Part shown: piece after piece, positions 42,974 through 63,462 of the stretch
Position numbering within the stretch: position 1 is the stretch's first letter
Layout: every line of letters starts with the position of its first letter
Origin: Seongchinamella unica
Lineage (GTDB): Bacteria; Pseudomonadota; Gammaproteobacteria; Pseudomonadales; Halieaceae
Assembly (NCBI RefSeq): GCF_004354085.1
Contig: NZ_SMSE01000001.1
Location: 481,335-545,334, forward strand
Reading direction: 5' to 3'
Length of the DNA stretch: 64,000 bases
The notes under the pieces: model-generated
The model's input: the letters and a program-made list of their open reading frames with translations, nothing else
Databases searched by the model: none
Told to the model about the DNA's origin: nothing
Made by a program: the position numbers and the translations under genes

Positions 42974-43007
42974 TGATTTCCCGTGAATCGAATTTTTAAA
43001 GTTGACT

Positions 43008-43322
43008 ATGGAACCCGACATTAACCAGCGTATCTGGCAGGTTGTTGCCCTCATCCCCCCGGGCAAGGTCGCCACCTATGGCGATGTCGCCGCCCAGGCC
43101 GGCCTGCCAGGAGCCGCCCGTCGAGTCGGCCGCGCCCTGAAGCTCCTGCCGACAGGCACCCGGATACCCTGGCACCGGGTGGTCAATGCCCAGGGAGGTA
43201 TTTCGCTGCCGCCGGGTTCCTCCTCACAGTATACCCAACGGGAGCGGCTGGAGGCAGAGGGCGTTGTGTTCAAGGCCAACGGCGCTGTGGATTTGCGCCG
43301 GTTCCGCGCCTTTCAACCCTGA
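43008..43322 (+). CDS. Alkyltransferase-like DNA repair protein (ATL, Trp in place of catalytic Cys)
   Basis: A 104-residue relative of O6-alkylguanine methyltransferases. The family active-site motif PCHRV is here PWHRV with Trp at residue 55, the defining change of ATL proteins, which bind alkylated guanine and flag it for excision repair but cannot transfer the alkyl group. The helix-turn-helix part GKVATYGDVAAQAGLPGAARRVGRAL is conserved. The ATG at 43008 is used; a TTG two codons earlier is possible. Its 3' end overlaps the convergent sulfotransferase gene by ten bases. Confidence 0.9.
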   Translation: MEPDINQRIWQVVALIPPGKVATYGDVAAQAGLPGAARRVGRALKLLPTGTRIPWHRVVNAQGGISLPPGSSSQYTQRERLEAEGVVFKANGAVDLRRFRAFQP

Positions 43323-44446
43323 TCACCGTCGGCATTACCGCCCTGTTTTTCGGCCTCTTCCTCCAGTGCCTGCAACTTTCTCTGCAGGTGATCGCACCTG
43401 TCTGCCACCTGGTCCACCAACTGACTCAGGTTATTGATCAGTTCCACAGCGTAATCGGCCGGAACCTGGCTGGCATCGGGCAGCAGGGTCTCTTCTTCAC
43501 TGGCGGCAACCTCAGTGAACTGTTCACCCGGGGGCAACAGCGAGTTGAGGTAGCTGATCTTGAGATTGAAGCGCTCCGCTTCTTCCTCATTGAATTTTAC
43601 ATCCAGGGACAGGGGCGCCGCGCCAGCCTGGCGCATGGCCTCATAAAAAAGATGCTGTCGGCGTGACAGGCCTCGCTCGGTGTTATGCTGCCCGTCACGA
43701 TACAGGGGGTAGCGGTTGTTCATTGCCAGCAGCAGGGCGACACCTTCATCGCCCAAGGACTGGTTGGCCTCGCGTTCCGGCAATTCCAGCTCACCCTCAA
43801 GCTCAACCTGCGCGGCCTGGAAAAAATCGACAAGCAGGCTGCCACCGGCAAAGCTGTCCGGATCGAACCGCCTCAGCACAAAGTGGTCACGACCAAAAGC
43901 CTCGATCCAGCGCTGGAAAAACCGGTAATTCTGCCGCCGCTTGGTCAGCCGCAACAGCGCCTGCGCGGACATCGGGTCGCTCAGCTCCTTGACGTTCTGT
44001 TCCCACAGGCTCTTCAATGCCTGCAATGGATCTCGCACATAGGCCACCACCCGAACTTCATCAAAAAACGGCTCAACAAAGGTCTTGAGCGCCGCTAGGC
44101 CCTGCTTTGACAGGCGGCCCAGATTCTCCGCGGACACGATCCAGACGCCCTCCCCCGGCGTGGAAAAAAACGCCCGCCATTGATCGTTCAGGCGTTGTAA
44201 CTCCGCCTGCCAGGCTTCATCGCCGATGGGTGACAGCTGTTGGTAATAAATGCTATCGCTGGGATCTTCCAGAAAAAGGACCGTAAAATCGAAGGAGTGA
44301 TTGAACGGTTTCCAATCAGGGTAATAGACCCCCTGCTCGGCGAGCAATGGCGATCCCTGGCCCAGAGACGCCTGGATGGAACTGGTGCCGGTCTTGGCCA
44401 TACCGATATGCAAAACCAATTTTTTCAAACCAAAAGCCTCTCTCAT
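43313..44446 (-). CDS. Sulfotransferase-like protein with C-terminal coiled coil
   Basis: A predicted cytoplasmic sulfotransferase using PAPS. The 377-residue form carries the 5'-phosphosulfate loop HIGMAKTGTSSIQ at about 13-25 and a downstream VVAYVRDPLQALKSLWEQ segment corresponding to the 3'-phosphate-binding region. The C-terminus (about 325-377) is a charged coiled coil. Start is uncertain: the ATG at 44444-44446 overlaps the upstream gene's stop, while a TTG at 44426-44428 has GAGAGAGG ahead and would give the LKKLVLHIGM start resembling the sister protein at 46.8-48.7 kb. Acceptor unknown; genomic context suggests a cell-surface glycan. Confidence 0.8.
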   Translation of the reverse strand: MREAFGLKKLVLHIGMAKTGTSSIQASLGQGSPLLAEQGVYYPDWKPFNHSFDFTVLFLEDPSDSIYYQQLSPIGDEAWQAELQRLNDQWRAFFSTPGEGVWIVSAENLGRLSKQGLAALKTFVEPFFDEVRVVAYVRDPLQALKSLWEQNVKELSDPMSAQALLRLTKRRQNYRFFQRWIEAFGRDHFVLRRFDPDSFAGGSLLVDFFQAAQVELEGELELPEREANQSLGDEGVALLLAMNNRYPLYRDGQHNTERGLSRRQHLFYEAMRQAGAAPLSLDVKFNEEEAERFNLKISYLNSLLPPGEQFTEVAASEEETLLPDASQVPADYAVELINNLSQLVDQVADRCDHLQRKLQALEEEAEKQGGNADGDQG

Positions 44447-44456
44447 CCCTGACTGA

Positions 44457-46754
44457 CTACGATACACCACTGTCCCGCAGGGTTGTCGACCAGGTTTTCA
44501 TGGCGATGGCGATTTCCCCAGGGCCAGGTTTTGCACTCGCTACGACGAGACCGCCGGTCTGCTCCTCCAGCCACTCAAGAGTGCTGATAGTAACGTTCAG
44601 AAGCTCCTGCTCTGACGCCACCTGCAGACCCTCCCGATGCGTTTCCTCGTGCAGGGAAATATTCGCTCGCTCCTGTAACCATTCGTAGCTCGCCGCGTCA
44701 CGCTCTACCACTATTTTTCGCAGCAGTGTTGGATGCAGACGAAAAGACTCCCCCGGCAAGGTGGTCAGGCGGTCCACCAGCTCGCGGTCTCCGGGCTCTG
44801 CCCGGGGAAAATAGGTGCGATAAGTATATAGCAGCTGTACTGCCGGCAGACTCATGCCTACATTGGAACGGGCGGTGACCGGTGCTTTGGCTGTGACCCC
44901 GGCTACCTCCAGAAAATCATTGATGACACTGCCTCCGGGGAAAAGGGCGCGATCATAGGCGCGTATAATGACGTTATCGCGACCGAAAATTTCGTCGTAG
45001 ATATCAATGCGGCGCTTGAAGTTAACCACGATTTTATGATCAAGCGGAATAAAGCGCTGTTTCAACTTTTCCTGAAAAGCGCTCTCCACCCTTGAGTGCA
45101 GCGGACGTATGTAAAGCACCAGTCTGATCTCGGTAAAGTACTCGCTCAACTCAGCCGCCAGGCTGGCACACTCCTGGTGATTAAGCAGGCTGAAGGATTC
45201 CGCGGAAAGGATGACGGTCGGCTTGGTCGTCTCCCGCAGGCGACGCCGAAACTGGGTCAGCGCCTGCTGCTGTTTGCCCACCAGTTGCTGCTCGCTCAAG
45301 TTTTTGCCACGGTAGCCGGGTAATCGCCCCAAACGGGTGTGAAACGCCTCCAGCAATGTGAGCGAGGAGTTTGCCCGGCCTGCCGAAAAATATTCTATCG
45401 CCGGATCATCCAGGTGCTGGTACAGATAATCCTGAATCGCACTGGAGCCTGTTTTGTGCATTCCACCGTGCAGAATGACGGTGCGGGGACCGGTTGAGGC
45501 CCTTGCCACTGCCGCCGGTCGCTCTCGCCAGGGCGCCACCCAGAACAACATCAGCATTCCCGGAATGGCCAGCACGGCACACAACAGGAAAAACTGAACC
45601 CAGCCCACCTGCTCGACAATGATGCCGGTGCTGGCGTTGGCAAAGGTGCGCGGCAAGGCCGCCAGGGCAGTAAAGAGGGCGAACTGGGCGGCGGCGTAGA
45701 CCCTGCTGGTTTCCCGGGCAATAAAGGCAGTAAACGCCGCTGTGCCCATGCCGACCCCCAGGTACTCGAAACTGATGACGGTGGCCAGCAGCCACAGGGA
45801 ATGGCCAACCTGGGCCAATACGGCAAACCCCAGGATACTCACTACCTGCACCACACCGAACAACCAGAGGGCGCGGTTGATCCCCAGCCGGATCATCAGG
45901 CCGCCACCGAGCAGGCCGCCAATGATCGCAGGCCACAGGGCCGCATGCTTGGCCACCGCGCCTATCTCGGTCATGGAGAATCCCAGATCGAGATAAAACG
46001 GCGTGGCCAGGGCCGTGGCCATGTTGTCACCGATTTTGTACAAAAACATAAAGCCCAGAACCAGCAGCACGCCCTGCCAACCCCGGCGCTGTAAATACTC
46101 CCGAAAGGGCGCAACCACGGCTTCGCGCAGCCCTGCCGCCTGTGGGTACTCGGTGTCCGGCTCGGCCACCAGAAGCGTCATCACAACACCCACCAGCATA
46201 AATCCGCCGGTGATCCAGAACACGCTATTCCAGGGCAGGTGGTCCGCCAGGATCAGCGACAGCGACCCCGGTACCAGGCTGGATATGCGGTAGGCCTGAA
46301 CGTGAATAGAGTTGCCCAACCCCAGCTCCTCGTCCGGCAGTATTTCCCGCCGATAGGCGTCCAGGGCGACGTCCTGGCTGGCACTGAAAAAGGCCACGGC
46401 AAATGCAATCCAGGCGATAACGGCGGTATCCCGGGCCGGCACGAAAGCACCCAGTCCCGCGATGCTCAGCAGCAGCGCCACCTGGAAAATCAGCATCCAG
46501 CCGCGCCGACGCCCCAGAAAAGGCGGCACCCAGCGGTCCATGAGCGGTGCCCACGCAAACTTCCAGGTGTAGGGAATGCCCACCAGCGCAAACAAGCCGA
46601 TTTCGACGAGCGATACCCCCCCGTCACGCAGCCAGGCAGGCACCAGCTGAAACAGCACATACAGCGGCATGCCCGATGCAAATCCGGTGAACACACAAAT
46701 GAGCATACGCCGGTTGAACACCGATGCTCGCCAGTCGCCCTTCCCCTCAACCAA
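44457..46754 (-). CDS. AmpG-like muropeptide permease fused to a sulfotransferase domain
   Basis: A 765-residue protein made of two unrelated parts in one uninterrupted frame. Residues 1 to about 408 are an MFS transporter with about 12 membrane segments that resembles AmpG, the importer of GlcNAc-anhydroMurNAc peptides: TGFASGMPLYVL, FAWAPLMDRWVPPFLGRRRGW, FFSASQDVALDAYRREILP, FLYKIGDNMATAL. Residues about 424-765 are a sulfotransferase-like domain opening ILHGGMHKTGSSAIQ, with VLYIRPLHSRVESAF downstream. Twelve helices would leave the added domain in the cytoplasm, where PAPS is. It starts with TTG at 46752-46754, AGGGG upstream. Nearby fxsA/groESL matches the ampG neighbourhood I recall from Pseudomonas. 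Whether the two domains share a substrate is unknown. Confidence 0.85.
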   Translation of the reverse strand: MVEGKGDWRASVFNRRMLICVFTGFASGMPLYVLFQLVPAWLRDGGVSLVEIGLFALVGIPYTWKFAWAPLMDRWVPPFLGRRRGWMLIFQVALLLSIAGLGAFVPARDTAVIAWIAFAVAFFSASQDVALDAYRREILPDEELGLGNSIHVQAYRISSLVPGSLSLILADHLPWNSVFWITGGFMLVGVVMTLLVAEPDTEYPQAAGLREAVVAPFREYLQRRGWQGVLLVLGFMFLYKIGDNMATALATPFYLDLGFSMTEIGAVAKHAALWPAIIGGLLGGGLMIRLGINRALWLFGVVQVVSILGFAVLAQVGHSLWLLATVISFEYLGVGMGTAAFTAFIARETSRVYAAAQFALFTALAALPRTFANASTGIIVEQVGWVQFFLLCAVLAIPGMLMLFWVAPWRERPAAVARASTGPRTVILHGGMHKTGSSAIQDYLYQHLDDPAIEYFSAGRANSSLTLLEAFHTRLGRLPGYRGKNLSEQQLVGKQQQALTQFRRRLRETTKPTVILSAESFSLLNHQECASLAAELSEYFTEIRLVLYIRPLHSRVESAFQEKLKQRFIPLDHKIVVNFKRRIDIYDEIFGRDNVIIRAYDRALFPGGSVINDFLEVAGVTAKAPVTARSNVGMSLPAVQLLYTYRTYFPRAEPGDRELVDRLTTLPGESFRLHPTLLRKIVVERDAASYEWLQERANISLHEETHREGLQVASEQELLNVTISTLEWLEEQTGGLVVASAKPGPGEIAIAMKTWSTTLRDSGVS

Positions 46755-48778: not shown

Positions 48779-51700
48779 TCAGACGGTCACTTCCAGCGCC
48801 GCCCGGTAGACCGCATCGTGTTTACTGGCGAGTATGGCCGGGTCAAATTTCCCGGCCGCCCCCGGCACCGCGTCCTGCATTGCCTTGTAGTTTTCCCCGG
48901 CGGTGAGTAATACCGTCAACAGGTCGACCATGGCGGGGATGTCAATCTTATCACCATCCAGGGGAACGACGGCGCCCGCCATCCCCTGGGGGCCGTCCAG
49001 CATGCGGGCGATCTCTCCCAGCTCGGTGGCAAGGAAAGGCACCCCTGACTGCAGGCACTCAATAATTACCAGCGGAAAACTTTCGCCGCGGAATTTCGAC
49101 GGCAGAAAGCCCAGGTCCGCCACCGCAAAGTACCCACGGACATTGCGCTGGAAACCTTCCAGGTGCACGTGCGCGGGCAGCGCTTCGGTTTTCAGCCGGT
49201 CATACTCGGGCCCATCGCCCACCAACAGCAGGTGCAGATCCCTGCCGGTAAGGCGACGGGCCCGGTCTACCACCTCAATCGCTTCGCGCCAGCCTTTCTC
49301 TTCCATGGCCCGACTGACCAGGGTGAGGACAAACGCGTCCTCGGGGATCCCCAGCGCGCTGCGCTGCAGTGGCTCGAAATCGGCCAGTTCCAGGGCATTG
49401 TCGATACGTTCCAGCCGGGCATAGTCCAGCAACTGGTGACGGCGGATGGCGTCGAGGTTCTTCTCCGCCACATAGATCAGCCGGGCGCTGCGTTTGACCA
49501 GCCTGGGCAGAATCGGCTTGAGGTCGTATTCATTGATGGTTTCGTACATCCCGTGCAGGGTCACCACCGTCTTGCAGTCCACATCCTCGGGCAGAATATC
49601 CAGGATAGTGCTGTCCATCCAGGCGTGGTGGGAGTGAATCACCTCGATGTCAAAATCGGCGATAATGCGTTCCAGCTGGCTGAAATCCGAGACGATCGGT
49701 ATATCGGCTCGCAGCCGGCGCCGCACGCCTTCCAGCCTCGGCTCCCGGTCACAGTCCAGATAGGTCACGTTGTAGCCGCTACCTTTCATGATATTGGCGA
49801 GACTCACCGGGAAAGTCTCTCCCCCGCCGGAGCAGAAGGCGTAAGACGCCATCAGCAGGTTCGGGGCGCGCCGGGCCTCGCCCTCGGCAATCCGGGCGAG
49901 GCTGAAGCAGGATTCCAGCGCCTCGTCGCTGTAGTCTCCGCGGGTCTCCCGCCAGTGAATTTCCAGATTGTCCCGCAGGGTCTCGAAGACCGAGTCGGGC
50001 ACCTCGAAATATCGCTGTACGGTGCGGGCTACCAGTTCGTGTTCACGGTAAAAAGCGTCCTGCGAGTAGGAACCGACCGAGGTGTTTTCACCGTGGATCC
50101 GGTAGTAATTACAGGCCTCCGGTGAGTAAGCCAGCATGCCACCACGCAACAGGTGCAGGTACAACACCCAGTCGCCGCAGGTTTTCATCTGCCGCCATTC
50201 GGGGTCTGCCAGTATCTCCAGCTGGCGGGGGGTGCGGAACAGCGCTGAGCTGACGTTGGGCACGATGTTCTTGACCGCGAAAGCCTCGCGAACAATCTGT
50301 GGGCCGGTCGCCAGGATGGTGTGATTCCAGCGCTGGGGGTCGATGTCGTGCAGATACTCATTGATGGACCAGATCTGCCGTTCGCCTTCGCCATCCATGA
50401 ACACGGTACGGGCATAGGCCAGCATGATGGCCTCATTTTCAAAATAGGGCACCAGTGTGGCGAGGAAGTTTTCGGTACACCAGTCGTCACTCTCGGCGAT
50501 CCAGACGATGTCTCCGCGGGCCAGGTTGAGCCCCCGCTCCCACTGGTGAAATACACCGCCGGAGTTCTCCTCGTTGATCACCAGCGTCGACTTGTCCGGG
50601 TAGCGCTGGTGGTATTTCCGCAGCAGGTCGGCGCTTGCGTCGGTCGAGGCGTCATCCAGCAGAATAACCTCGAAGTGCTCATAGGTCTGGGAGAAAATCG
50701 ATTCCAGCCGCAACTCAAGGTAGTCGGCATGGTTGTAATTGGGCACGATCACGCTGACCAGCGGGGCGAACTCCTCAGTTGCTTCCCGCTGCTGGTACAG
50801 CATTGGCGATAACAGGCCACTACTTTGTGGCGTGTGCAAATCCCTCGGGGCTACCCCGAACAGGCGATTGGCCAGGCGAAAGACCGGCCGCACCAGCCGC
50901 CGGATGGTCCAGGCAACACCGGGATGGCGCAGGCTCATACGGTGGTAGACCAGGATGGCTTTCAGGCGGAACTGCACCCAGTTACGGGCAAGCGAATCCC
51001 GCAACCGCTGCAGCCTGAAGCTGAGACTGCGCAGCGGCCGGGTCAGCTTCCAGGAGGTGGAATTTTCCATCTGCCGGACCCGCTCGATAAACTCATCCCG
51101 CTGGTCGAGATAAAGGTCACGTTCCCCGCTCAGTTGCAGCGTTTCAGTCTCCAGCTGGCTCTTTTGCTCGTTGAGCTCCACCATGCCGAGCCGGTTCGCC
51201 TCGGCGATCTCCGCCAGGCGGGCAATCTCGGACTCCTGCGCGTCCAACTGCTGCCGCAGCGCCCGGGTACCCTGTTGCGCGTTGGCAAGCTCATCGCGCA
51301 GCGGGCTTACAACCTGCTGGTGCTCCGCCTGCATGCGTTCGCCGTTGTCCTTGAGTTCCGCCACCTGCTGCTCACAATCGGCAAGCACTTCCGCGGACCG
51401 GGTCAGCGCCAGCCGGTCTTCCCGGGCAGATTCGCTAAGGCGTGAAAACGCGGGGGCGACAATATCGCTGATGCGCTGGCGGGTATCGTCCCGCTCGTAA
51501 ATCCACCGGCACTGGTCAATGACGCCGGGCAGAGTAGCCCTGGCCTCGCCTGACAGCTCACGGGCACACCCCCACAACTCCAGCAGTTCGGGGAATGCCC
51601 TGGCCAGTTCACTGCGCGCTTCTTCAGTGGCGCTGCTGCGGTACAGCGCCGGGTCCACGAAGCTGTCGCAGAACTCCGCTGCCACAGCCGGGTCGGGCTG

Positions 51701-52342
51701 CAGGCCGGTAAAGCCCGCCAGCGCCGGCAGCACCTGTTGCGGCTCGGTCAGTAGCGCCTCGTATGAGAGGTAGAACACCGGCAAGTCCCTGCTGGCCAGC
51801 AGGGACTGTGCCGTGAGCGAAAACCACAGCGCCGCGCCCTCCGGCAGGCGCCTGCCAAACTCGTAAAAGTCCCGGTTCGACGCGGCCCGCCGCTGCTGGG
51901 ACAGGGCAACCTCCACCGGGTTCCTGAGGGTATGCAGGTAGAAAATGTTTTCCCTGGCGTAACCGGAATCGACCAACACCGCGTCCCAGAACGGCAGCAG
52001 CTGGCAGATGCGGGGATCCTTGATGACCGCAACCGCGGCCTCGCCATAGATGCCGGCAACGAGGTCGCGGGCTGTATCCCGCCAGCCCCCCACGTCTCTG
52101 TCGGCAAGCGCGGCGGCGCCATCAAACAAGGGGTTGTCCCAGCTACCGCCCAGTTCGGCGAGCAGGGCGTTGTTGAATGCCACGATGTCCGGGTGCTCGA
52201 AGAAGCCCTTGCGGTTTTCCTCGTTGGCGTAGTGCTCACCCAGGCAGACGTCAGCCCCGAGGGCTTCGGTGGCCGCGGCACAGAGTGAGGTGCCGGACCT
52301 GTGTGCGCCAAGGACGACGATCAGTTTTCGGGGATTTGCCAT
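48779..52342 (-). CDS. Multidomain sulfotransferase / GT2 / GT4 glycan-building protein
   Basis: An 1187-residue soluble protein with three predicted enzymes. Residues 1-250 are a sulfotransferase-like domain with loop VVLGAHRSGTSLC at 9-21 and LHTLRNPVEVALSQQ near 136. A coiled coil runs from about 300 to 425. Residues about 525-760 are a family 2 glycosyltransferase (VSVIVPNYNHADYLELRL, LLDDASTD, ESDDWCTENF). Residues about 827-1180 are a family 4 GT-B glycosyltransferase with SGGGETFP, VSRAMEEKGWREAI and the FRGESFPLVIIE nucleotide-sugar motif. Such fusions are typical of sulfated or rhamnose-type surface polysaccharide loci. Acceptor and sugars cannot be inferred. Confidence 0.85.
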   Translation of the reverse strand: MANPRKLIVVLGAHRSGTSLCAAATEALGADVCLGEHYANEENRKGFFEHPDIVAFNNALLAELGGSWDNPLFDGAAALADRDVGGWRDTARDLVAGIYGEAAVAVIKDPRICQLLPFWDAVLVDSGYARENIFYLHTLRNPVEVALSQQRRAASNRDFYEFGRRLPEGAALWFSLTAQSLLASRDLPVFYLSYEALLTEPQQVLPALAGFTGLQPDPAVAAEFCDSFVDPALYRSSATEEARSELARAFPELLELWGCARELSGEARATLPGVIDQCRWIYERDDTRQRISDIVAPAFSRLSESAREDRLALTRSAEVLADCEQQVAELKDNGERMQAEHQQVVSPLRDELANAQQGTRALRQQLDAQESEIARLAEIAEANRLGMVELNEQKSQLETETLQLSGERDLYLDQRDEFIERVRQMENSTSWKLTRPLRSLSFRLQRLRDSLARNWVQFRLKAILVYHRMSLRHPGVAWTIRRLVRPVFRLANRLFGVAPRDLHTPQSSGLLSPMLYQQREATEEFAPLVSVIVPNYNHADYLELRLESIFSQTYEHFEVILLDDASTDASADLLRKYHQRYPDKSTLVINEENSGGVFHQWERGLNLARGDIVWIAESDDWCTENFLATLVPYFENEAIMLAYARTVFMDGEGERQIWSINEYLHDIDPQRWNHTILATGPQIVREAFAVKNIVPNVSSALFRTPRQLEILADPEWRQMKTCGDWVLYLHLLRGGMLAYSPEACNYYRIHGENTSVGSYSQDAFYREHELVARTVQRYFEVPDSVFETLRDNLEIHWRETRGDYSDEALESCFSLARIAEGEARRAPNLLMASYAFCSGGGETFPVSLANIMKGSGYNVTYLDCDREPRLEGVRRRLRADIPIVSDFSQLERIIADFDIEVIHSHHAWMDSTILDILPEDVDCKTVVTLHGMYETINEYDLKPILPRLVKRSARLIYVAEKNLDAIRRHQLLDYARLERIDNALELADFEPLQRSALGIPEDAFVLTLVSRAMEEKGWREAIEVVDRARRLTGRDLHLLLVGDGPEYDRLKTEALPAHVHLEGFQRNVRGYFAVADLGFLPSKFRGESFPLVIIECLQSGVPFLATELGEIARMLDGPQGMAGAVVPLDGDKIDIPAMVDLLTVLLTAGENYKAMQDAVPGAAGKFDPAILASKHDAVYRAALEVTV

Positions 52343-52409: not shown

Positions 52410-53339
52410 CTAGACTTTTTTTAGAATTGTCGCGCAAAGCAGACCCAAATTTCCCCAGAACGTCTGCGTGTAAAGACCGATAGTCCTCAACCCGGAAAGT
52501 CGCTTTATAACGCCTTCTTGACGCCATTGTTTGAATACGAGTAACAAATCGCGATTGTGTGTCTCAAGCAACTCGGCACAGGCCTCCAGGGCGGCAATAT
52601 TGCGGTCATTCCAGCAGCGATTTCTGCCGCCCAGAACACCCAAATATCGACTTATACGTCGTCCCATTCCGGTATTCGCCCCGATCTGGTTACCGGCGTG
52701 CTGCCGGTAACTCACGTAGGGCTGCGGATCATAAATCACCTTACCGCCGGCACCGCTGATCAGCAGGTAAGCCCACCAGTCATGGCTGACAGCGTCCCGT
52801 ATCCCGGCCCTGAGCAACAAAGTTCGCGCGGGATCATTCATGACCATGGTATTGCCTCCGCCGATATTCTGTATCAGGGCATTGGCGAAAGCGGCTTTTT
52901 TCCTGAACAGGGGAGACAGGCCGGTGACCTGGCCTGTTACGGACAGTGACCGCGTTCTACCACAATATAAGGTGGCCAGGCGATCATCGGATTGCTGCAT
53001 TTTTGCTATCGCCCGGGTCAGCTTGTCGCTATCCCAGATATCATCCTGGTCCGCGAAGCAATAGTAGTCAGCGACAATATTTTCATCACAAAGGAGGGAG
53101 AGAAAATTCTTCGCAGACCCGCTGGCCGGCCCCTGGCGCAAATGCAGCCCAGGGGATTTGTTCGACCGGGCTATCGCTTGCAGCATTTCCCAGGTGCCGT
53201 CGGTTGAAGCGTCATCAGAGACGAATAAATTGACTGAGACACCCTGCTGTCGGTCAATTGATTCCAGTTGCTCGGCCAAAAAGTCGCTGCCATTATGGGT
53301 GCACAGCAGGACAGCGACTTCTGGTTTGCTGCCGGTCAC
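52410..53339 (-). CDS. Family 2 glycosyltransferase, rhamnosyltransferase-like (GTG start)
   Basis: A 309-residue GT-A enzyme with VAVLLCTHNGSDFLAEQLESI, SDDASTDGTW, the DXD-type CFADQDDIWDSDKL, and HDWWAYLL near residue 187, a combination frequent in rhamnosyltransferases of O-antigen and capsule loci. The C-terminus is basic with a hydrophobic stretch (LGLLCATILKKV) that may touch the membrane. The GTG start overlaps the upstream PPIase stop as GTGA. A gap of about 67 bases precedes the next gene. Confidence 0.87.
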   Translation of the reverse strand: MTGSKPEVAVLLCTHNGSDFLAEQLESIDRQQGVSVNLFVSDDASTDGTWEMLQAIARSNKSPGLHLRQGPASGSAKNFLSLLCDENIVADYYCFADQDDIWDSDKLTRAIAKMQQSDDRLATLYCGRTRSLSVTGQVTGLSPLFRKKAAFANALIQNIGGGNTMVMNDPARTLLLRAGIRDAVSHDWWAYLLISGAGGKVIYDPQPYVSYRQHAGNQIGANTGMGRRISRYLGVLGGRNRCWNDRNIAALEACAELLETHNRDLLLVFKQWRQEGVIKRLSGLRTIGLYTQTFWGNLGLLCATILKKV

Positions 53340-54244
53340 TCCTGTTTGGCGTAGGGCGCCAGGATTGCTTCAACCGCCTCGTGGTCGATGATGACATCAT
53401 CAGACATGTTGAACTGCCCGACATAGTCCTTCATCGCCAACTGGATGTATTCAGCCTCCAACTCTTTGACGATGTCGTCCTTTACATCCTCGAACGACTT
53501 GTAGGATTGCTCCTGGATTCCGTCGAGGCGAATAATATGGATGCCGAATTCGGTTTGCACCAGTTCCGAGTAATCGCCTATTTTCTCGATGGTGAATAGC
53601 CCCTCGGTGTAGGGCGGTGTCACGCCTATTTCGCCAAACTTCAGCCAGCGGTCAAATTTGCCCTGTTTCTCGGCGGCGCCCGGTTCGCCGGAATAGGTTT
53701 CCACCATCTCGACAAAGTCAGCGCCCTCGCGCAGCTGGTCCAGTACTCCCTGGGCCTTCACCAGCAAGTCATCTCTCACCACCCCTGGCGGGGCCGAAAA
53801 AAGTATGTGGGACGAAATACGGCGTTCCGGAATCAACGCATACTTATCACGATTGAGGGTGTACTGCTCTTGCGCCAGTTCGGTAAAGTCAGGGACTTCC
53901 ACCTGATCGCGATACCAGCGCAAGGCAAAATCCCGCTGGTAGGCTTCGAGGCCCAGCCGGTACTGCCAGGTGACATCCGGGTCCTGTTCGGCAATGTTTT
54001 CCGCCTCGGCGGCCAGTTTCTTGTTGGCCAGAGACAGGTTAAGCAATTCGAGCCGGTCTCCGTCGTCGCCAATCGCCGAATCCCGCATCTGCTGGGTCCA
54101 GCGACTCACCAGATAGGCAAGCTCGCTTTCGGTTAATGCGAATTCGCCATCCTGCACGACAATATTCTGCGCCATGGCAGGCAGGGCTGGAACTACCAGC
54201 AGCAGGGCACTAAAAAGACACTTCAACATGTTCATCTGCAGCAA
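53336..54244 (-). CDS. Periplasmic parvulin-type peptidyl-prolyl isomerase
   Basis: A 302-residue exported folding factor. It has a signal peptide ending LPAMAQ, an N-terminal helical region (about 30-135) and a parvulin domain (about 140-245) with RRISSHILFSAP, VETYSGEPGAAEKQG and TEFGIHIIRLDGI. The family includes SurA and PrsA; similar genes occur in exopolysaccharide loci. The first codon as given is TTG with GGGAG five bases ahead; an ATG three codons later (54233-54235) also works and leaves a good signal peptide. It heads the glycan gene run. Confidence 0.85.
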   Translation of the reverse strand: MLQMNMLKCLFSALLLVVPALPAMAQNIVVQDGEFALTESELAYLVSRWTQQMRDSAIGDDGDRLELLNLSLANKKLAAEAENIAEQDPDVTWQYRLGLEAYQRDFALRWYRDQVEVPDFTELAQEQYTLNRDKYALIPERRISSHILFSAPPGVVRDDLLVKAQGVLDQLREGADFVEMVETYSGEPGAAEKQGKFDRWLKFGEIGVTPPYTEGLFTIEKIGDYSELVQTEFGIHIIRLDGIQEQSYKSFEDVKDDIVKELEAEYIQLAMKDYVGQFNMSDDVIIDHEAVEAILAPYAKQE

Positions 54245-54275
54245 CTATGCTCCCAGTTTCATAAAATCACACGAT

Positions 54276-54304
54276 AAAAAAAGCCGACACCCGAAGGTGT
54301 CGGC
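54276..54304 (-). terminator. Intrinsic terminator of the 519-residue secreted protein gene
   Basis: Perfect nine-base stem GCCGACACC (54283-54291) with GGTGTCGGC (54296-54304) around CGAA, followed on the minus strand by seven T residues. It lies about 30 bases before the PPIase gene, which has no obvious promoter of its own, so partial read-through may drive the glycan genes. Confidence 0.92.
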
Positions 54305-54332
54305 TCTTGATACTACGCTTTACTACCCGTGT

Positions 54333-55892
54333 TTACGGAGCAGACTGCACACGGCTGTGCTCAACGATACGGCCGTAGTTGGAACCCGGGTTCGCAGCGA
54401 ATGCACGCTGCCAGGCCACGAAGCCAACAATCGGGGTATCACCGATAGCACGGTCCATACAGTTATACGCCTGAGCGTTAAAGTCGATGTCACAGATCAT
54501 CAGGTTGCTATCCGCAGGCTCTGTTGACAGGCTCGCCCAACCAAACTTGGCGCCATCCGGAGTATCTACAGAGATGGTTACCGGCGCGTTCAGCACAGGC
54601 GACTCACCCCACTGAATGACGTTAACTTCGTCCTTCAGCGCCTTGGGAGTAGAGATTACCGGAGGCTGGGGAGACACAACCAGGTCACCTTCCTCAACGA
54701 CAATGCCCTGCTCTTCACGATCGTAGACATCGAATGTGGCTGTCAGCGGAATATCGCGGAAGTCACAAGGAACCACGTCACCAACCGGAGAAGTCGGGTT
54801 AGCCGCATTGGCGATATCGGCTGCGGTTTGACGCAGACAGGCATCAGGACCTTCTGTGAGGTAAGCACCCAACGCGAGCATGGTGTACTGGCCCGGGATG
54901 GTAACAACCCAGTCAGTGTCCACAGTCGCACCCAGGGCTTCGATGGTGTTCTTGGACCAGTCGTTGATCAGCGCTTCTGTACCCAGAATCGCACGCAGTT
55001 CATTGTACTTACCGCGAGGGGTACCAGCTGCGCCTGTAACGAAATCCAGAGGCGCACCACCGTTCAGGTCGGGATGGTCAAAGCCCTGGAAGTCACCAGA
55101 GAAGATACCCTGCTGCTGGTTGGTCATTGCTGGACCATCCATGAACCCTGCAATGTGGATGGCGTTGTCACCGAATTCCACGCCAGTTTCGTCGGACTTG
55201 ATGAAGTAGGACACCTTCAATGAGTCAGCGGATGCCACGTAGGAAGTGGCCTCCAGAACCTCACCGGCTGCTGTAGTGGTGAACTGGTGAGTCGTCTCAG
55301 AGTCGATCACCCCGCGGTCTGTCAGATCCGCAACGCCTGTCCCAAGTACGTTGGCGAAGAAGTTATCGCGAACGTCATCACAGTTGGCGGGAACGCCGTC
55401 AGCGCCATGCTTGGCGGCCTTGGCGATCGGCGCAGTTTCGCTGTCAGGCGAACCCATGCTGATGATTTCGATGTAACCAGTTTCCGCGCCTTCGCGATAG
55501 ATCGGAGGCATGGTGAACTTGTTGTCGCCAGTGTTGTAGTCCGGTGCCGTACAGCTGTTGTCGTTGGATGTCCAGGTGATGTCATCACCGTCCAAGCCAA
55601 TGAAACCGGTGTACACGTCCTGCGGAGACAGGACAACGTTAAAGTCCAGGGCATCCATCGAGTCAACAGCGCGACGGAAGCGGAACTTCAGCACCTGGGT
55701 CTGATCGGAAGTGTTGATGATGTTAACACCGGTGGCATAACCATCCATCACGGTGTAGTAGGGGACGATTGCCAGGTCACCGAGTTCGGTTTCTGAGGCA
55801 ACAGTCGCTTGGGCGCTTACCGCGCCCGCGTAGCCAGCGGAGGCCGCAGCAACTGCTGCTGCCAGGCCAAGAGGCTTAAAGTTTACGTTCAT
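54333..55892 (-). CDS. Secreted protein of unknown function
   Basis: A 519-residue exported protein with a clear Sec signal (about residues 1-27, ending AVSAQ) and an acidic, threonine- and glycine-rich mature part with several cysteines. The mature start AIVPYYTVMDGYATGVNIINTSDQTQVLKFRFRR is of a type I associate with uncharacterised marine gammaproteobacterial surface proteins. No enzymatic motif, anchor or barrel signature is visible. A good promoter, an AGGAG site seven bases before the ATG and a strong terminator suggest a monocistronic, well-expressed gene. It may use the neighbouring type II system for export, which is inference only. Confidence 0.8.
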   Translation of the reverse strand: MNVNFKPLGLAAAVAAASAGYAGAVSAQATVASETELGDLAIVPYYTVMDGYATGVNIINTSDQTQVLKFRFRRAVDSMDALDFNVVLSPQDVYTGFIGLDGDDITWTSNDNSCTAPDYNTGDNKFTMPPIYREGAETGYIEIISMGSPDSETAPIAKAAKHGADGVPANCDDVRDNFFANVLGTGVADLTDRGVIDSETTHQFTTTAAGEVLEATSYVASADSLKVSYFIKSDETGVEFGDNAIHIAGFMDGPAMTNQQQGIFSGDFQGFDHPDLNGGAPLDFVTGAAGTPRGKYNELRAILGTEALINDWSKNTIEALGATVDTDWVVTIPGQYTMLALGAYLTEGPDACLRQTAADIANAANPTSPVGDVVPCDFRDIPLTATFDVYDREEQGIVVEEGDLVVSPQPPVISTPKALKDEVNVIQWGESPVLNAPVTISVDTPDGAKFGWASLSTEPADSNLMICDIDFNAQAYNCMDRAIGDTPIVGFVAWQRAFAANPGSNYGRIVEHSRVQSAP

Positions 55893-55948
55893 AAGGAGAC
55901 TCCTAATATTTAGTCTTTTTTACAACAATTTAACACGTTGCTAGCGCT

Positions 55949-55976
55949 ATTATTGCCAGCTGCAGCCAGCTGTCAA
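55949..55976 (-). promoter_or_regulatory. Promoter of the secreted-protein gene
   Basis: Minus-strand TTGACA (55976-55971), 16-base spacer, AATAAT (55954-55949). Start of transcription would be near 55942, leaving a leader of about 50 bases. The spacer includes CTGGCTGCAGCTGG, a partial palindrome that might bind a regulator. Confidence 0.65.
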
Positions 55977-55988
55977 CCTACAAAACAG

Positions 55989-56435
55989 CTAATAGTTGGC
56001 ACCAAACCACCACTCACCGTCGACAAGGATCCACCTCTCGTGCAGTTCGCGGGGCATCGCACCTAACGCTTTAGCCGCTGCAGAGGTTTGTTTGGTTGGC
56101 TTGGACATGACCCGAACCACCACACTCGCTACAGCTGCAGAGGGATCATAGTGAGTTACCTCAATCCCTGTCAACTCCCAGTTCGCCGTATAGGAAAACT
56201 TTTTGACATACAGTTGCTTAGGGAAAACTTCTCTGTAAGCAGGCGAACTGTACTCCCAGGCCTTGCCCCAGTCGTGGGCAATGCGCGCCTGCCAGCGCGC
56301 CTCAACCCGTGCTTCCAGGGTCGCGATCTGCTCAGGCGTCAGCTCAGCGCGTTCGGCACAGCCCCCCAGCCAGAGACCGACAACCACCAGCACAGACCCG
56401 TATACGATACGTAACATACTGTTTTTGTTAACCAT
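55989..56435 (-). CDS. Small putative lipoprotein of unknown function
   Basis: A 148-residue protein with a lipoprotein signal ending GLWLGGC. The mature part (about 120 residues) is a helical segment followed by short strands (HDWGKAWEYSSPAYREVF, YTANWELTGIEVTHY, WILVDGEWWFGANY), reminiscent of NTF2-like folds, but no family could be named. Start is uncertain between ATG 56433-56435 and ATG 56415-56417; neither has a clear ribosome binding site, and the promoter at 56454-56482 would give leaders of about 12 and 30 bases respectively. Confidence 0.75.
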   Translation of the reverse strand: MVNKNSMLRIVYGSVLVVVGLWLGGCAERAELTPEQIATLEARVEARWQARIAHDWGKAWEYSSPAYREVFPKQLYVKKFSYTANWELTGIEVTHYDPSAAVASVVVRVMSKPTKQTSAAAKALGAMPRELHERWILVDGEWWFGANY

Positions 56436-56453
56436 TTGAGAAAAGAGGGCGCG

Positions 56454-56482
56454 ATTATACGCGAATATTCCGCCGCTGTGTA
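56454..56482 (-). promoter_or_regulatory. Promoter of the small lipoprotein gene
   Basis: Minus-strand TACACA (56482-56477), 17-base spacer and a perfect TATAAT (56459-56454). It lies in the roughly 240-base gap after gspD, which otherwise holds only a spurious 72-codon frame. Confidence 0.62.
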
Positions 56483-56673
56483 TGACTCTGGGGGTCACGC
56501 CAGGCCGACGGCGAATTTGTGCAGAGCAGACCACCGTGGGCGAAGCGTGCGGCACCCGCCGTCCGCTGGAATGAGCACGCTGCCACCATCCGATGCATTA
56601 CCGGCTTTGTGCGCCTGCGGGTCGCGCAACTCACGGTTCGTGAAAAGTACCATTTACCGATAAACGGCGCCAA

Positions 56674-58848
56674 TCACAGATTGCCAGGGTCAATAAGCTC
56701 CAAATTACGAATCCGGGCTCGCATCTCTTTACTGACGTCCCTCAATTCGGACTCGTTGTACAGCGCCCGCGGGGTAATGATGACCAGCAACTCGGTACGG
56801 TTTGAGGTGTCAGAGTCCGTACCAAAAAGAGACCCAATGACCGGGATATTGTGCAGCCAGGGCACCCCCTGGGAGGCGGTGCTGGCATTCTCGCGGATCA
56901 AGCCCCCCAGCACGACAGATTCATTGGAGCGGACCGCGACCCGACTCTCGATATTTCTCTCGAGAAAGGCACGCTGACCGGTGGCAGCGTCGATTTCACC
57001 GACATCGGTCACCGACTGCATCACATCCATGGTCACCAGACCACCCGCGTTCACCGAGGGCCTTACCTCCAGCTTCACCCCGGTGTCGCGATAGCTGATC
57101 GACTGGGTGACCCGTCCGGAGTCACTGGCCAGTGATTCCGTTTGCGAATCAATAATAGGCACCTGATTACCCACATGAATGTACGCCGAGTGATTGTCGA
57201 GCACCATGACCGAGGGTGAGGAAATGATATTCAGCAGGCTTTCCTTGGCCAGTGCATTCAATACCGCACTGACGTCGCCAATGGAGTTCGTCACCGTATA
57301 GGAGAACCCGGGCGCAATGGATGCCGGAGCGGTCGCGTCAGCGACACTGGAAAGGAAACCCTCTCCACTGTAATCACTGCCGAGCCCGTTCTTGAATGTC
57401 CACTCCAGTCCATAATTGAGCTCGTCGGTCAGGCTTACCTCCATGATGCTGGCTTCGATAATCACCTGTGTCGCCACAACATCGAGTTGGTCAAGGGCGG
57501 ACTCGATCAACCTGTACTGCATTGCCGTGGCGTATATCATCAGCGCATTGTTATCGTCATCTGCAACCACCCTCACATCGGCAACCGCGTCTCGACCGCC
57601 AGACATACCCTCGACGGTCATGTTGGTAACGGTCGAGCCCGACGACTGCCGCCTGTTACCAAATGAACCGCCAGCGGAAGAACCCACCGTTTCCGGCGAC
57701 ATACCCGGCGCAACACCGGCCTCATCGCCCGGACCTCGGTCGCCGTACTGGCCGCCACCGGCCTGGCCCGAGTAAATGCTGTTGATCAGCTTTGCCAGCC
57801 GGCTGGCCGTTGTATTCTGTACCGGGTAAACATAAAGACGCTGATCGTACTCGGTGTAATGGGCGGCATCGAGGCGCTCAATCCACTCCTGAACGCTATC
57901 CAGGTAGTGAGCGCGCGGCGTCACGATCAGGATACTGTTCAGGCGTTCGACTGGCACTACCCGAATCATGTCCTTCAGGCTACCTCCACCCTCCTGGGTG
58001 TTCATCATCGCCTCCAGAGCCAGCGAGACTTCTTCAACGCTGCTGTTCTCGAGCGGAAATAGCCCCACCGACATGCCGGCCAATTGGTCCACATCGAAGG
58101 TCGAGACAATATCCAACCAGCCATCCAGCTGGGTCCGGGTACCGGCCAGCATCAGCAGGTTGCGCGACTTGTCGACCCGGACGAAAGCAGACTCATCCGC
58201 TACCGGCTTGAGAATTTCCGCCATGTTGGCCGCACTGATGTAATGCAAGGGCACAATGACGGTCGAATACCCTGCCGCGGTGTCTCTGGGGTTATTCAAC
58301 CGGGGTGCCAGCTTGGTGCCGCGATTACTGCCGGTCACCAGATAACGGCCATCGGCGCCGCGGATCATGATGGTATTGTTGGCCTTGAGCAACGACTCGA
58401 GCACGTTGAGCAACTGGTCGCGTGGAATCGGGGTCCGGGTGCGCAGGGTGACCTGGCCCTGAACCGGGTGATCCACCACGTAGTCCAACTTGAGAATATC
58501 CCCCATGATGGCGTGAGTCACCTCACTCAAGGGCGCTTGCTCGAAATTCAGGCTTACATCGTCACCGATGAAACGGATTGGCTCCTGCTGCTCGGGCATC
58601 TTCACATGCCGGTCAGTACCCTTGTAGACCACTGCCTGCTGAGTGCCCTTTTCATCCTTCTCATCCAATGCGGTGATCGCCAATTCGGAGGCCGACGAGG
58701 CCAGGCTGGCTTCTGCTTCTGCCGGGGACTCGCCCGACGCGACATCCATGGATGTCGTGCCACTGATGGTGGTACAACTGCTAACCAGCAGCAGTGGCGC
58801 AATTGCAGCGATAAATCTCGAAGTTTTCATTCCTGTCGGCCTGTTCAT
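56674..58848 (-). CDS. gspD: Type II secretion secretin GspD (lipoprotein form)
   Basis: Outer-membrane secretin channel. The 724-residue protein has a lipoprotein signal ending LLLVSSC (Cys at residue 25 of the given start), an N0 domain (about 88-160), N1-N3 modules with the variable glycine/serine-rich loop in N3 (about 365-420), and the secretin core containing SPSVMVLDNHSAYIHVGNQVP and VPWLHNIPVIGSLFG. The lipoprotein form recalls Xanthomonas XpsD. A second ATG six codons in (58828-58830) also fits the signal. It is the last gene of the operon. Confidence 0.95.
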   Translation of the reverse strand: MNRPTGMKTSRFIAAIAPLLLVSSCTTISGTTSMDVASGESPAEAEASLASSASELAITALDEKDEKGTQQAVVYKGTDRHVKMPEQQEPIRFIGDDVSLNFEQAPLSEVTHAIMGDILKLDYVVDHPVQGQVTLRTRTPIPRDQLLNVLESLLKANNTIMIRGADGRYLVTGSNRGTKLAPRLNNPRDTAAGYSTVIVPLHYISAANMAEILKPVADESAFVRVDKSRNLLMLAGTRTQLDGWLDIVSTFDVDQLAGMSVGLFPLENSSVEEVSLALEAMMNTQEGGGSLKDMIRVVPVERLNSILIVTPRAHYLDSVQEWIERLDAAHYTEYDQRLYVYPVQNTTASRLAKLINSIYSGQAGGGQYGDRGPGDEAGVAPGMSPETVGSSAGGSFGNRRQSSGSTVTNMTVEGMSGGRDAVADVRVVADDDNNALMIYATAMQYRLIESALDQLDVVATQVIIEASIMEVSLTDELNYGLEWTFKNGLGSDYSGEGFLSSVADATAPASIAPGFSYTVTNSIGDVSAVLNALAKESLLNIISSPSVMVLDNHSAYIHVGNQVPIIDSQTESLASDSGRVTQSISYRDTGVKLEVRPSVNAGGLVTMDVMQSVTDVGEIDAATGQRAFLERNIESRVAVRSNESVVLGGLIRENASTASQGVPWLHNIPVIGSLFGTDSDTSNRTELLVIITPRALYNESELRDVSKEMRARIRNLELIDPGNL

Positions 58849-58859
58849 ATCGTTTTGAT

Positions 58860-59552
58860 TTAAGTCTTATTGCTGGGAGCGCGCCTTCCCAGGGTCAGGG
58901 TGTCGTTGCTCTTTTTTTGCGTAGCACCAGGTTGGCTTTTTGCTTTCCTGGCCTCCCCTGCAGAGCCATCAGACCCAGCGGGAGCTGCTTCATCACCAGA
59001 CTGTGGCTTCTCAATAGCGCCCTGCCTCAACACCAGACTGGCCTTGCGATCACCCGTGCTTAACAGTGCCTCAGTAGGCTCTACCGATTGCAGCTCCCAG
59101 CCGTTGACTTCCTCACCGACCATCACCCGGCGCTTCTTGCCCTTGGCCAGCACAATAATACCAGCGGCGTCACCGCTACCGAACACGCCGGTGAGTTTTA
59201 CCCCATCGATCTTGCCTGGCTTCTGTTCTTCCGATGAGTCCGCCTGAGCTTGCGCCACCGATTCCGCCTCGGACATTGCTTCCAATGGTCTTCTGCCTGG
59301 CCAGAACAGCGGGCGGGCGGCTATCTGGGCCCGCATCTCCGGGTCAATTTGCTCACTGATCCCCAACTGGATTACTTGCAGGGATTTTGCCCGCGGTTGC
59401 ACCGGGTCGGGTACAAAGGGAAACAGCGACCTGAAACCACCCCAGAGGAACTGTACGATGAGCAGCAGAACGACAGCGATTAAAACCAGCTCTACGCGCC
59501 GCTCGGCACGCAGCGGATTTTCCAGATTGCGGTAGCGATGGCCCAGGTTCAT
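58860..59552 (-). CDS. gspC: Type II secretion inner-membrane protein GspC
   Basis: Links the inner-membrane platform with the secretin. A 230-residue protein with a cytoplasmic arm, one membrane segment (about 20-40), and an HR domain (about 110-175) with LTGVFGSGDAAGIIVLAKGKK and VGEEVNGWELQSVEPTEALL. No PDZ or coiled-coil C-terminal domain is present; the tail is a low-complexity polar stretch, as in the short XpsN-type. It overlaps gspM as ATGA and is followed by gspD after 11 bases. Confidence 0.88.
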   Translation of the reverse strand: MNLGHRYRNLENPLRAERRVELVLIAVVLLLIVQFLWGGFRSLFPFVPDPVQPRAKSLQVIQLGISEQIDPEMRAQIAARPLFWPGRRPLEAMSEAESVAQAQADSSEEQKPGKIDGVKLTGVFGSGDAAGIIVLAKGKKRRVMVGEEVNGWELQSVEPTEALLSTGDRKASLVLRQGAIEKPQSGDEAAPAGSDGSAGEARKAKSQPGATQKKSNDTLTLGRRAPSNKT

Positions 59553-60118
59553 ATTACCGACCTCAGAGACAACAACTTGAGGGAAGCTGTTGCGTCCTGC
59601 ACTGCAGCTTCGCCCTGGCGAGCGCGCTGGCGAGTGGGCCAGATGTCCAGCGACTCTACGATAACCAGCGGCGCGAATTCAGCAAGCTGCACCAGAGCCC
59701 GGTCCAGGCTGGCAACATCACCGGCAACGGTCAATTTTACACCGATGTAATCAAACTTCTCTTCCTCCCGCACCGGCATGACCTGGCTGTTACTCACCGT
59801 GAGGCCAGCATCTTCCAGCAACTGGCGCACTTCCGACTGCATGGCAGCAGCCACCGAGGTTCTCTCTGCTGTTGCAGGATAAACCAGCCGCGCATTCTGT
59901 TGCTGTACCAGACCAGAGGATTCACGCAGCTGCTGCTCGACCTGCTGAATACCTTTCAGGCGGGCGATTTTTGGGCCTAGCCTGTCAACATCGGCAGCAT
60001 ATTCCACCCGGAGCCCCCAGGCGCCGAACAGTACATTGAGGTAGAGCAAGACGGGCAGCACCAGGGTGGCGCCACAAATGGCAGCGCTTCGGGGGTGAGC
60101 TTTTGCCCAGGCGATCAT
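59549..60118 (-). CDS. gspM: Type II secretion protein GspM
   Basis: Bitopic assembly-platform partner of GspL. It has 189 residues with one membrane segment at about 13-35, a periplasmic helix, and a ferredoxin-like domain (about 100-165; GLTVSNSQVMPVREEEKFDYIGVKLTVAG). Sequence is poorly conserved in this family, so the call rests on topology and on position between gspL and gspC, with ATGA overlaps on both sides. Confidence 0.82.
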   Translation of the reverse strand: MIAWAKAHPRSAAICGATLVLPVLLYLNVLFGAWGLRVEYAADVDRLGPKIARLKGIQQVEQQLRESSGLVQQQNARLVYPATAERTSVAAAMQSEVRQLLEDAGLTVSNSQVMPVREEEKFDYIGVKLTVAGDVASLDRALVQLAEFAPLVIVESLDIWPTRQRARQGEAAVQDATASLKLLSLRSVI

Positions 60119-61128
60119 ATGGCAGCCCCTTTCAGCTGGATTTTCAGGTGAAACTGTTCGAGGTTGGTACCGGGTATCTTGCGTATCGCACTGGCGGCCG
60201 TCACCGCAGCGTACTCGGTTTGTTTGGTCAGCAACTGCATCACACCAGCGGCATCGGCCGCACGGCCGCGCAGGTCTATCTCCTGGCCATTCACGGCGAG
60301 TCTTTCCACGTAAGCATCGTCCGCCAAAAGCTGACTGAGCCTGGCCAGCTCGAGGTGCGGGCTGGGATAGCGGCGACTCACTTGTTCAACCGCCCCGGTC
60401 ATTTCATTGGCAGCATTGAGCGCATTACGCATTCGCGTCGCCTGTTGCGCTTCCCGCTCGGCAACTACGGCTATTGCCTCCAGATTTTCCAGCTCCAATT
60501 TTTTGAAACCCGCGCCACTAGCGGCTACCAGCAGCAGGACAAGGGCCGCCGCGCCCAGCATCGTAGCGACCTTGAACAGGCGGCGACGATAGCAATCTTC
60601 CCTTCGATGCTCACCGAAGCCACGGACGACGATCATCCTGTCTTCGACTTCGACCCAGGCCTCCTGGGCCTGGGCGTCGTGACTGCCGTACTCATGGCCG
60701 ATATAGGTCATCGCCGAGCTCAGGGATACGATGACCAGAATGAGATGCAGGAACTGCTCATCCCGGGTGACCAGGGTCCAGCCATAACCGGTGTCGGCGG
60801 CGGCAAAGGGACTGCTGGAATTTACCTCTAATGCGAGCACGCTTTCCAGGTCTGCTTCAACCGCGGCCGGCAGCCGTAACGTTCTGGTTAGCACCAGTTC
60901 GTCAGGCAAAACTACCGCAACACAGCTGGTTTCCACGTCACTACAGGGCTGGCCCGCCTGGTAACAACTCACGCCAGAGGGAGAACGGAGGCTTACCGGT
61001 TCGTCGAGATGAGAGCGTACCGGCGAATCGTATGCCCACAAAAGCTCTCGCCAGGCAGCCTTAAAGTGCTTGCCAACGTTGCGCATATCATAGCCGAACA
61101 GCTCCCAGTTCTGACCCGACTCAAACAT
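60115..61128 (-). CDS. gspL: Type II secretion protein GspL
   Basis: Cytoplasmic actin-like domain plus single membrane span that recruits the GspE ATPase. It has 337 residues: a cytoplasmic part of about 185 residues, shorter than in model GspL, with VVLPDELVLTRTLRLPAAVEADLESVLALEVN; a membrane segment at about 187-210; then a periplasmic coiled coil and ferredoxin-like domain. Assignment is from position between gspK and gspM and from this architecture. Confidence 0.82.
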   Translation of the reverse strand: MFESGQNWELFGYDMRNVGKHFKAAWRELLWAYDSPVRSHLDEPVSLRSPSGVSCYQAGQPCSDVETSCVAVVLPDELVLTRTLRLPAAVEADLESVLALEVNSSSPFAAADTGYGWTLVTRDEQFLHLILVIVSLSSAMTYIGHEYGSHDAQAQEAWVEVEDRMIVVRGFGEHRREDCYRRRLFKVATMLGAAALVLLLVAASGAGFKKLELENLEAIAVVAEREAQQATRMRNALNAANEMTGAVEQVSRRYPSPHLELARLSQLLADDAYVERLAVNGQEIDLRGRAADAAGVMQLLTKQTEYAAVTAASAIRKIPGTNLEQFHLKIQLKGAAI

Positions 61129-61150
61129 TCAAGGCCCTCTCCATTATTCG

Positions 61151-61990
61151 TTATGTGGCCACGACTCGCGGGGCCTCTGTCCGCACCACGCGCCATGGCA
61201 GGCTGGAATCGCCGCCTGACTCTCGCCGCAGCCACCGGCGACGCAGCCAGGTTCTACCGCCGTATTCGACATAGGCGTCGGCGCGAAACGCTCCGGTGTT
61301 GGTAGCGCGCCTGGTGACTCGACTACCTCCAGCCTGAGACATGGCTTCCCGGCGCCTGCCAATAGAATCCGACTGCTCTGGGTTGAGCGCTGTCAACACT
61401 TCCATCATATCACCGGGAGAGGCACTCCAGTTCATGCTACCCGAGGTCCAGCTGCCGACAGCGACATAGTCACGAATGCCATCCAGCAAGGCACGACTGA
61501 CACCGTCGACCCGCAGTACGTCTTCCAGAGAATAAAATGTTCGCGAGCCTGCCCTCGAGAACCTTCGTTCCTGTTGCGCCCCCTGATTGAGGCGCCACTT
61601 TACCACATTGTCTGCTACGATTTTCGCCTCCCCGGTCTCCAGCCCTCCCGCAAAACTGAACAGCGCAGCCATGACCTGCTCAGAGGCTTTATTGAGATCA
61701 ACGAAGCCAGAAGCCGGGGCGATTTGAACTCTCACCTCGAGCTCTCCAAGGCGATGCCGGGTGTCAGAAATCATCGGGCCCTGCCCGCTGGATTCAAAAC
61801 CCTGGTCACGCTCCATCATGGCAAGGTAAATAGCCCCGTCTCCAGCTGCGATTGCCTTTGCTCGCGCCAGGTGGATCTGGGTTGTACGGGTATCGATTCT
61901 GGCGTGGGCGACAATACCGGCAACCAGCAGCGACATGCCTGCGATAAACCAGACCACGATGGCCAGAGCCACCCCGCGCTGGGCAACCAT
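61151..61990 (-). CDS. gspK: Type II secretion minor pseudopilin GspK
   Basis: Tip pseudopilin of the type II system. It has 279 residues from the ATG at 61988-61990, which shares a base with the gspJ stop (TGATG). The prepilin site is QRG|VALAIVVWFIAG, lacking the usual Glu at +5, a normal GspK feature. The large periplasmic domain includes SGFVDLNKASEQVMAALFSF, typical of the family. An upstream 39-codon extension overlaps gspJ and is rejected. Confidence 0.88.
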   Translation of the reverse strand: MVAQRGVALAIVVWFIAGMSLLVAGIVAHARIDTRTTQIHLARAKAIAAGDGAIYLAMMERDQGFESSGQGPMISDTRHRLGELEVRVQIAPASGFVDLNKASEQVMAALFSFAGGLETGEAKIVADNVVKWRLNQGAQQERRFSRAGSRTFYSLEDVLRVDGVSRALLDGIRDYVAVGSWTSGSMNWSASPGDMMEVLTALNPEQSDSIGRRREAMSQAGGSRVTRRATNTGAFRADAYVEYGGRTWLRRRWLRRESGGDSSLPWRVVRTEAPRVVAT

Positions 61991-62589: not shown

Positions 62590-62971
62590 GAGAGTAGGCC
62601 TCCACCACGGAATTCAGGACGATTTCCCGTCGCTTGCTGCCATCAAACCAGGCGACCCCCACCTCGATGTCGTGCAACTGGGCCCGGCCCATGCCGCTGC
62701 GGCGCAAATCGCGGGGCTGTGATTCCACCCGCCACTGGTAACCTGCCGCCGTTTCACCGGTCGCATTCACGCCCTGCTGGGGTACCATCGCGTTGTCCGC
62801 CAGCAGCGATCGGGCCAGCTCCACCCCATAGGCGTAACGCTCCGAGGTACGCACGTTGCGCGTTGCACCGCTGGCCGCCTGGTAAAGCGAGCCCAGCGCC
62901 AACGCCAGTATGGAGATGGCTACCAACATCTCCAGCAATGAAAATCCGCACTGGCGACTAGTTGGCGTCAT
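62576..62971 (-). CDS. gspI: Type II secretion minor pseudopilin GspI
   Basis: Minor pseudopilin of 131 residues. Prepilin site QCG|FSLLEMLVAISIL with Glu at +5, followed by ALGSLYQAASGATRNV and a short globular domain with YQWRVESQPRDL. It overlaps gspH by 14 bases and gspJ by 14 bases. Confidence 0.88.
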   Translation of the reverse strand: MTPTSRQCGFSLLEMLVAISILALALGSLYQAASGATRNVRTSERYAYGVELARSLLADNAMVPQQGVNATGETAAGYQWRVESQPRDLRRSGMGRAQLHDIEVGVAWFDGSKRREIVLNSVVEAYSRERR

Positions 62972-63431: not shown

Positions 63432-63462
63432 GGGGGGGGTGACGTTGACGCGACGGGACGCG

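Follow-up and report, generated by a model that had tools for sequence, protein, structure and literature searches.

An AmpG muropeptide permease joined in frame to a predicted sulfotransferase domain in Seongchinamella

Why should a permease of cell wall recycling carry an enzyme at its C-terminus? The window analyzed here, 64 000 nucleotides of the Seongchinamella unica genome, contains a single reading frame that begins as an AmpG-type importer and ends as what looks like a sulfotransferase. We ask whether the join is real, how it may have arisen, and what the attached domain might do. The reading that we favor, at a probability of about 0.58, is that this is a real bifunctional inner-membrane protein derived from merged operon genes, in which AmpG imports while the tethered domain sulfates the glycan of the surrounding gene cluster.

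The fused gene and its two halves

The first-pass annotation had proposed an open reading frame in this position, and it is indeed present and uninterrupted on the minus strand. Its parts are as follows.

44457..46754, minus strand: fused gene, AmpG plus sulfotransferase domain, 765 aa
45540..46754, minus strand: AmpG half, residues 1–405, 12 predicted helices; TIGR00901, 481 bits
45486..45539, minus strand: linker, about residues 406–423, unlike the linker of locus L040 in length and sequence
44460..45485, minus strand: sulfotransferase-fold domain (ST1, predicted), residues 424–765
45432..45470, minus strand: P-loop-type 5′-phosphosulfate motif HGGMHKTGSSAIQ, residues 429–441, including Lys434
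45198..45200, minus strand: Glu519, candidate catalytic base, unchanged in all 25 aligned sequences
45081..45107, minus strand: 3′-phosphate-type motif, Arg550 to Ser558, both unchanged in all 25; aligned with 3rnl

The frame opens with TTG, and the corresponding TTG is the start of the orthologous frames in L040, L041, L043 and L059. The N-terminal section of about 405 residues had been taken as AmpG, and the NCBIfam search bears this out. TIGR00901 (AmpG) covers residues 13–405 at 481 bits against a curated cut-off of 350, a match that spans the full length of the family, and MFS_1 matches at residues 21–369. A125 and Q127 occupy the positions of A129 and Q131 of the Pseudomonas aeruginosa permease, as judged from a primer-coded peptide in an excerpt of PMC5154545. 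What sets this protein apart from an ordinary AmpG permease is a soluble enzyme-type domain of ∼345 residues at the C-terminus; none was seen in the other AmpG frames examined.

In the full-length model there are 12 helices, with broken ones grouped, lying within residues 15–406 at a pLDDT mostly of 75–95, and a complete 12-helix MFS transporter is thus predicted. The linker falls below a pLDDT of 50 at residues 412–423, and the sulfotransferase half is poorly modelled in this calculation because two rows only of the alignment cover it. With 12 predicted helices the C-terminus should be on the same side of the membrane as the N-terminus. Both termini of Escherichia coli AmpG are cytoplasmic according to an excerpt of PMC3022710, and both lie at the cytoplasmic side in the P. 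aeruginosa model described in the part of PMC5154545 available to us. The domain is therefore probably cytoplasmic, in agreement with the topology first suggested for it, and it would hang from the last helix by a short flexible linker.

The C-terminal half matches no Pfam family at E ≤ 1 and no NCBIfam entry at E ≤ 0.01, and phmmer finds nothing for the domain in the PDB at E ≤ 1. It does not reach the curated cut-off of the Pfam sulfotransferase families Sulfotransfer_1, _3 and _4; Sulfotransfer_3 is touched by five of 25 relatives of the domain, with a best E of 0.00033. The original suggestion of a sulfotransferase-type domain finds its support in structure prediction. A model of the domain matches solved sulfotransferases, namely the heparan sulfate N- and 3-O-sulfotransferases (NDST1 and 3-OST) and the bacterial 3rnl, at ∼10–13% identity and rmsd 4.0–4.7. 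These differ from the present case, where the domain is attached to a 12-helix transporter. Lys434, Glu519, Arg550 and Ser558 are invariant in all 25 aligned sequences. The motif HGGMHKTGSSAIQ lies at residues 429–441, just where it had been noted, and alignment with 3rnl identifies a putative 5′-phosphosulfate loop with its lysine and a putative Arg/Ser motif for the 3′-phosphate. An APS kinase is encoded in the genome, so that the PAPS assumed by the first-pass annotation can be made. The genus also has stand-alone relatives, encoded by separate genes and 33–47% identical to the ST1 domain (alignment A1).

Recurrence of the fusion in a second species

Is the fusion peculiar to one assembly? 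A full-length counterpart is present in Seongchinamella sediminis U0301 (genome G006, locus L040), 771 aa long and 84% identical, which provides the recurrence in a related genome that had been proposed as a check. The linkers of the two proteins are unlike in sequence, and that of L040 has six codons more, with the frame kept in both. Comparison of the two genes gives a dN/dS of 0.048 over the AmpG half and of 0.090 over the sulfotransferase half. The genome has no TIGR00901 match besides the AmpG half of the fused protein. Given this sole copy, its strong constraint and an AnmK gene at another locus, we infer that it is still functional and would import anhydro-muropeptides.

The first-pass annotation had recognized that two separate genes in relatives, together with a frame error here, would undo its proposal. 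The first part is found, in that strain HTCC2148 carries two genes in different frames, but there is hardly any likelihood that a sequencing or assembly error joined them here, since an independent assembly from a second species has the same fusion at full length and errors in both are very unlikely; a frame error at the junction is rejected on the same ground.

The fusion has a narrow distribution, in two of the eight genomes of the genus. In the family search AmpG was found at E ≤ 1e-60 in 100 of 140 genomes, and the only long AmpG frames were those of G000 (770 aa) and G006 (776 aa), the next longest being 563 aa. The ST1 profile made from alignment A1 gave matches at E ≤ 1e-25 in 15 of 140 genomes of the family and 8 of 293 of the order; matches in long frames were confined to the same two genomes. 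AmpG is present in 275 of 369 genomes of the class sample, where no further fusion occurs in the seven longest other frames among the matches listed (734, 622, 605, 597, 584, 556 and 554 aa). Six of these end 7–21 residues past the AmpG match with no sulfotransferase profile match at E ≤ 10, their extra length being run-on before the AmpG match or a longer middle; the seventh, in G432, ends 12 residues past the match. An apparent AmpG–sulfotransferase frame of 777 aa at L092:1950-4280 was rejected: stretches of N create it, and the locus contains 968 N.

The two kinds of protein are each known. We could not find a description of their fusion in the literature searched; no paper combining ‘AmpG’ and ‘sulfotransferase’ was found in a search that left most subscription journals outside.

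Probable origin from neighboring genes

The arrangement in HTCC2148 (locus L041) suggests how the fusion may have come about. There AmpG is 418 aa long with its own stop codon, and a separate ST1 gene lies in another frame with an overlap of 11 bases, its ATG being at 9247 and the end of AmpG at 9257. In L042, L043 and L059 ST1 is absent at this place, and the orthologue of ST2, the second sulfotransferase-like gene of our locus, comes after AmpG. In L046 the stop codon of AmpG and the start of another sulfotransferase share an ATGA. A single change suffices to place the fusion on the trees, with support of 78/94 for AmpG and 97/98 for ST1. Most likely, then, an overlapping, translationally coupled ampG and the glycan sulfotransferase gene that followed it merged in frame once, within what would have been a sulfated-glycan operon. 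The ST1 of HTCC2148 may itself be a replaced paralogue rather than the direct ancestral state, as judged from its identity of only 47% to ST1 here and the moderate support for the fused pair in the AmpG tree (78/94).

Coupling of AmpG is seen with another kind of glycan gene as well. At L049:9236-10354 and L068:1131-2261 the gene after AmpG encodes a glycosyltransferase of the GT4 type, and with its first start taken the two overlap by 4 bases.

The region 43313-45485 has diverged far more at synonymous sites than neighboring genes. Between the two genomes dS is 2.03 for ST1 and 1.41 for ST2, against 0.66 for AmpG; in the same pair it is 0.73 for the preceding gene, 0.95 for DUF481 and 0.48 for GroEL. 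The high values may reflect faster change, weaker codon constraint or recombination.

Glycan neighborhood and the possible role of the domain

What might the domain act upon? The genes around it are these.

43313..44470, minus strand: ST2, second sulfotransferase-like protein (blastp match), 21% identical to ST1 (alignment A2) with shared invariant residues
46788..48740, minus strand: preceding gene, two sulfotransferase-like halves, 650 aa; Sulfotransfer_3 at 377–605, N-terminal half like ST1
48779..52342, minus strand: sulfotransferase-like, GT2 and GT4 protein, 1187 aa; Sulfotransfer_3 below its cut-off
52410..53339, minus strand: family 2 glycosyltransferase

The fused gene is thus located between two sulfotransferase-like genes, downstream of the sulfotransferase–GT2–GT4 and GT2 genes, and the first possible start of ST2, the next gene, overlaps it. 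Such company recurs in other loci. A sulfotransferase-like frame adjoins ampG on the same strand in 21 of 53 loci (16 downstream, 15 upstream; gap limits of –420 to 300 bases and –120 to 400 bases, respectively), a proportion that should not be read as a frequency among AmpG genes in general because the loci were fetched by similarity to the fused protein. Records for 17 of the 21 are titled Halieaceae or one of its genera, the other four being ‘marine gamma proteobacterium’, ‘Gammaproteobacteria’ (two) and ‘Nitrosomonas’. The genes that adjoin ampG encode sulfotransferases of several subfamilies, or glycosyltransferases, in glycan clusters.

Homologues of ST1 also occur in 47 of 72 556 plasmid records, 39 of them from Phaeobacter. 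The alphaproteobacterial plasmid relatives are separate genes, 26–30% identical in the ten listed of the 47 records. In the four plasmid regions viewed, rfb, sugar or capsule export, glycosyltransferase or other sulfotransferase genes surround the homologue, which is annotated ‘hypothetical protein’ in these polysaccharide regions. Against a glycan role, the six stand-alone relatives within the genus whose regions were inspected have neighbors that look metabolic by eye, with no evident glycan cluster.

The ampF–ampG operon of P. aeruginosa offers a comparison. According to an excerpt of PMC3022710 a 6-O-methylguanine-DNA-methyltransferase-like gene lies near ampG, as it does here; the differences are that the gene here is on the opposite strand, and that sulfotransferase and glycosyltransferase genes surround ampG. 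The methyltransferase-like gene (43002-43322, plus strand) keeps its place near ampG, and in several loci it also has FxsA and GroEL close by. On the upstream side of the glycan genes, the interval 53336-63638 encodes a PpiC-type isomerase, a GspD secretin, T2SSM_b and PilN matches, two proteins carrying pilin methylation motifs and, as judged by eye, a 519-aa protein whose N-terminus looks like a signal and a 188-aa lipoprotein-like protein. In several loci the sulfotransferase cluster comes together with relatives of the PpiC, 519-aa and 188-aa genes, an association that points to a secreted surface protein that is modified.

Of the functions offered in the first-pass annotation, the one that best suits the glycan neighbors and the plasmid polysaccharide loci is the plain joining of a recycling gene to a glycan locus; its other two suggestions, sulfated wall fragments and altered β-lactamase signalling, found no support in the analysis. 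The domain would use PAPS to sulfate the glycan of the neighboring glycosyltransferase and sulfotransferase cluster while that glycan is assembled on the inner side of the membrane, and the benefit would lie in tethering and a fixed 1:1 expression rather than in a joint reaction.

The strongest rival to sulfation of the cluster glycan, though a rather unlikely one, is that the halves work as before, that joining them serves no function and that the fusion has simply not yet been lost. Its restriction to two closely related species in the family and order searches would suit this, as would the dissimilar linkers; yet the halves have stayed in frame despite a length change of six codons and a dS of at least 0.66.

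We think it distinctly less probable that the domain modifies muropeptides vectorially, sulfating GlcNAc-anhMurNAc(-peptide) on its exit from the AmpG channel so that it is trapped, marked or stopped from signalling. Geometry and the recurring pairing of genes are the two things that speak for it: the predicted sulfotransferase fold would be on the side where muropeptides arrive, its structural matches act on GlcNAc-containing glycans, and ampG repeatedly adjoins a sulfotransferase gene. Set against this, the neighbors of ampG are of varied sulfotransferase subfamilies, or are glycosyltransferases, within glycan clusters, and relatives of the domain exist without AmpG. A search for sulfated peptidoglycan, with most subscription journals outside it, returned no paper on the subject and one unrelated match. 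Were muropeptide sulfation true, sulfate on imported wall fragments would control their recycling, signalling or storage, and the ampG–sulfotransferase pairing in Halieaceae would be a general system for modifying wall fragments.

It is more doubtful still that a start within the linker yields the sulfotransferase as a protein of its own, be it in addition to the fusion or as the main product. Both linkers have an in-frame GTG, at residue 416 here and 420 in L040, but the predicted anti-Shine–Dalgarno pairing is weak at –3.1 and +1.2 kcal/mol; 222 internal start-like codons have a median of –2.5 kcal/mol. The weak ribosome-binding sites in both genomes disfavor a separate product.

A bifunctional protein that imports muropeptides and sulfates the cluster glycan therefore remains our preferred reading. 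The fusion and the two-gene state of a related strain show a way in which genes that overlap in an operon can come to encode a single membrane protein. They also make testable any link between wall recycling and the sulfation of surface glycans, in a marine family whose ampG genes often lie beside sulfotransferase genes.
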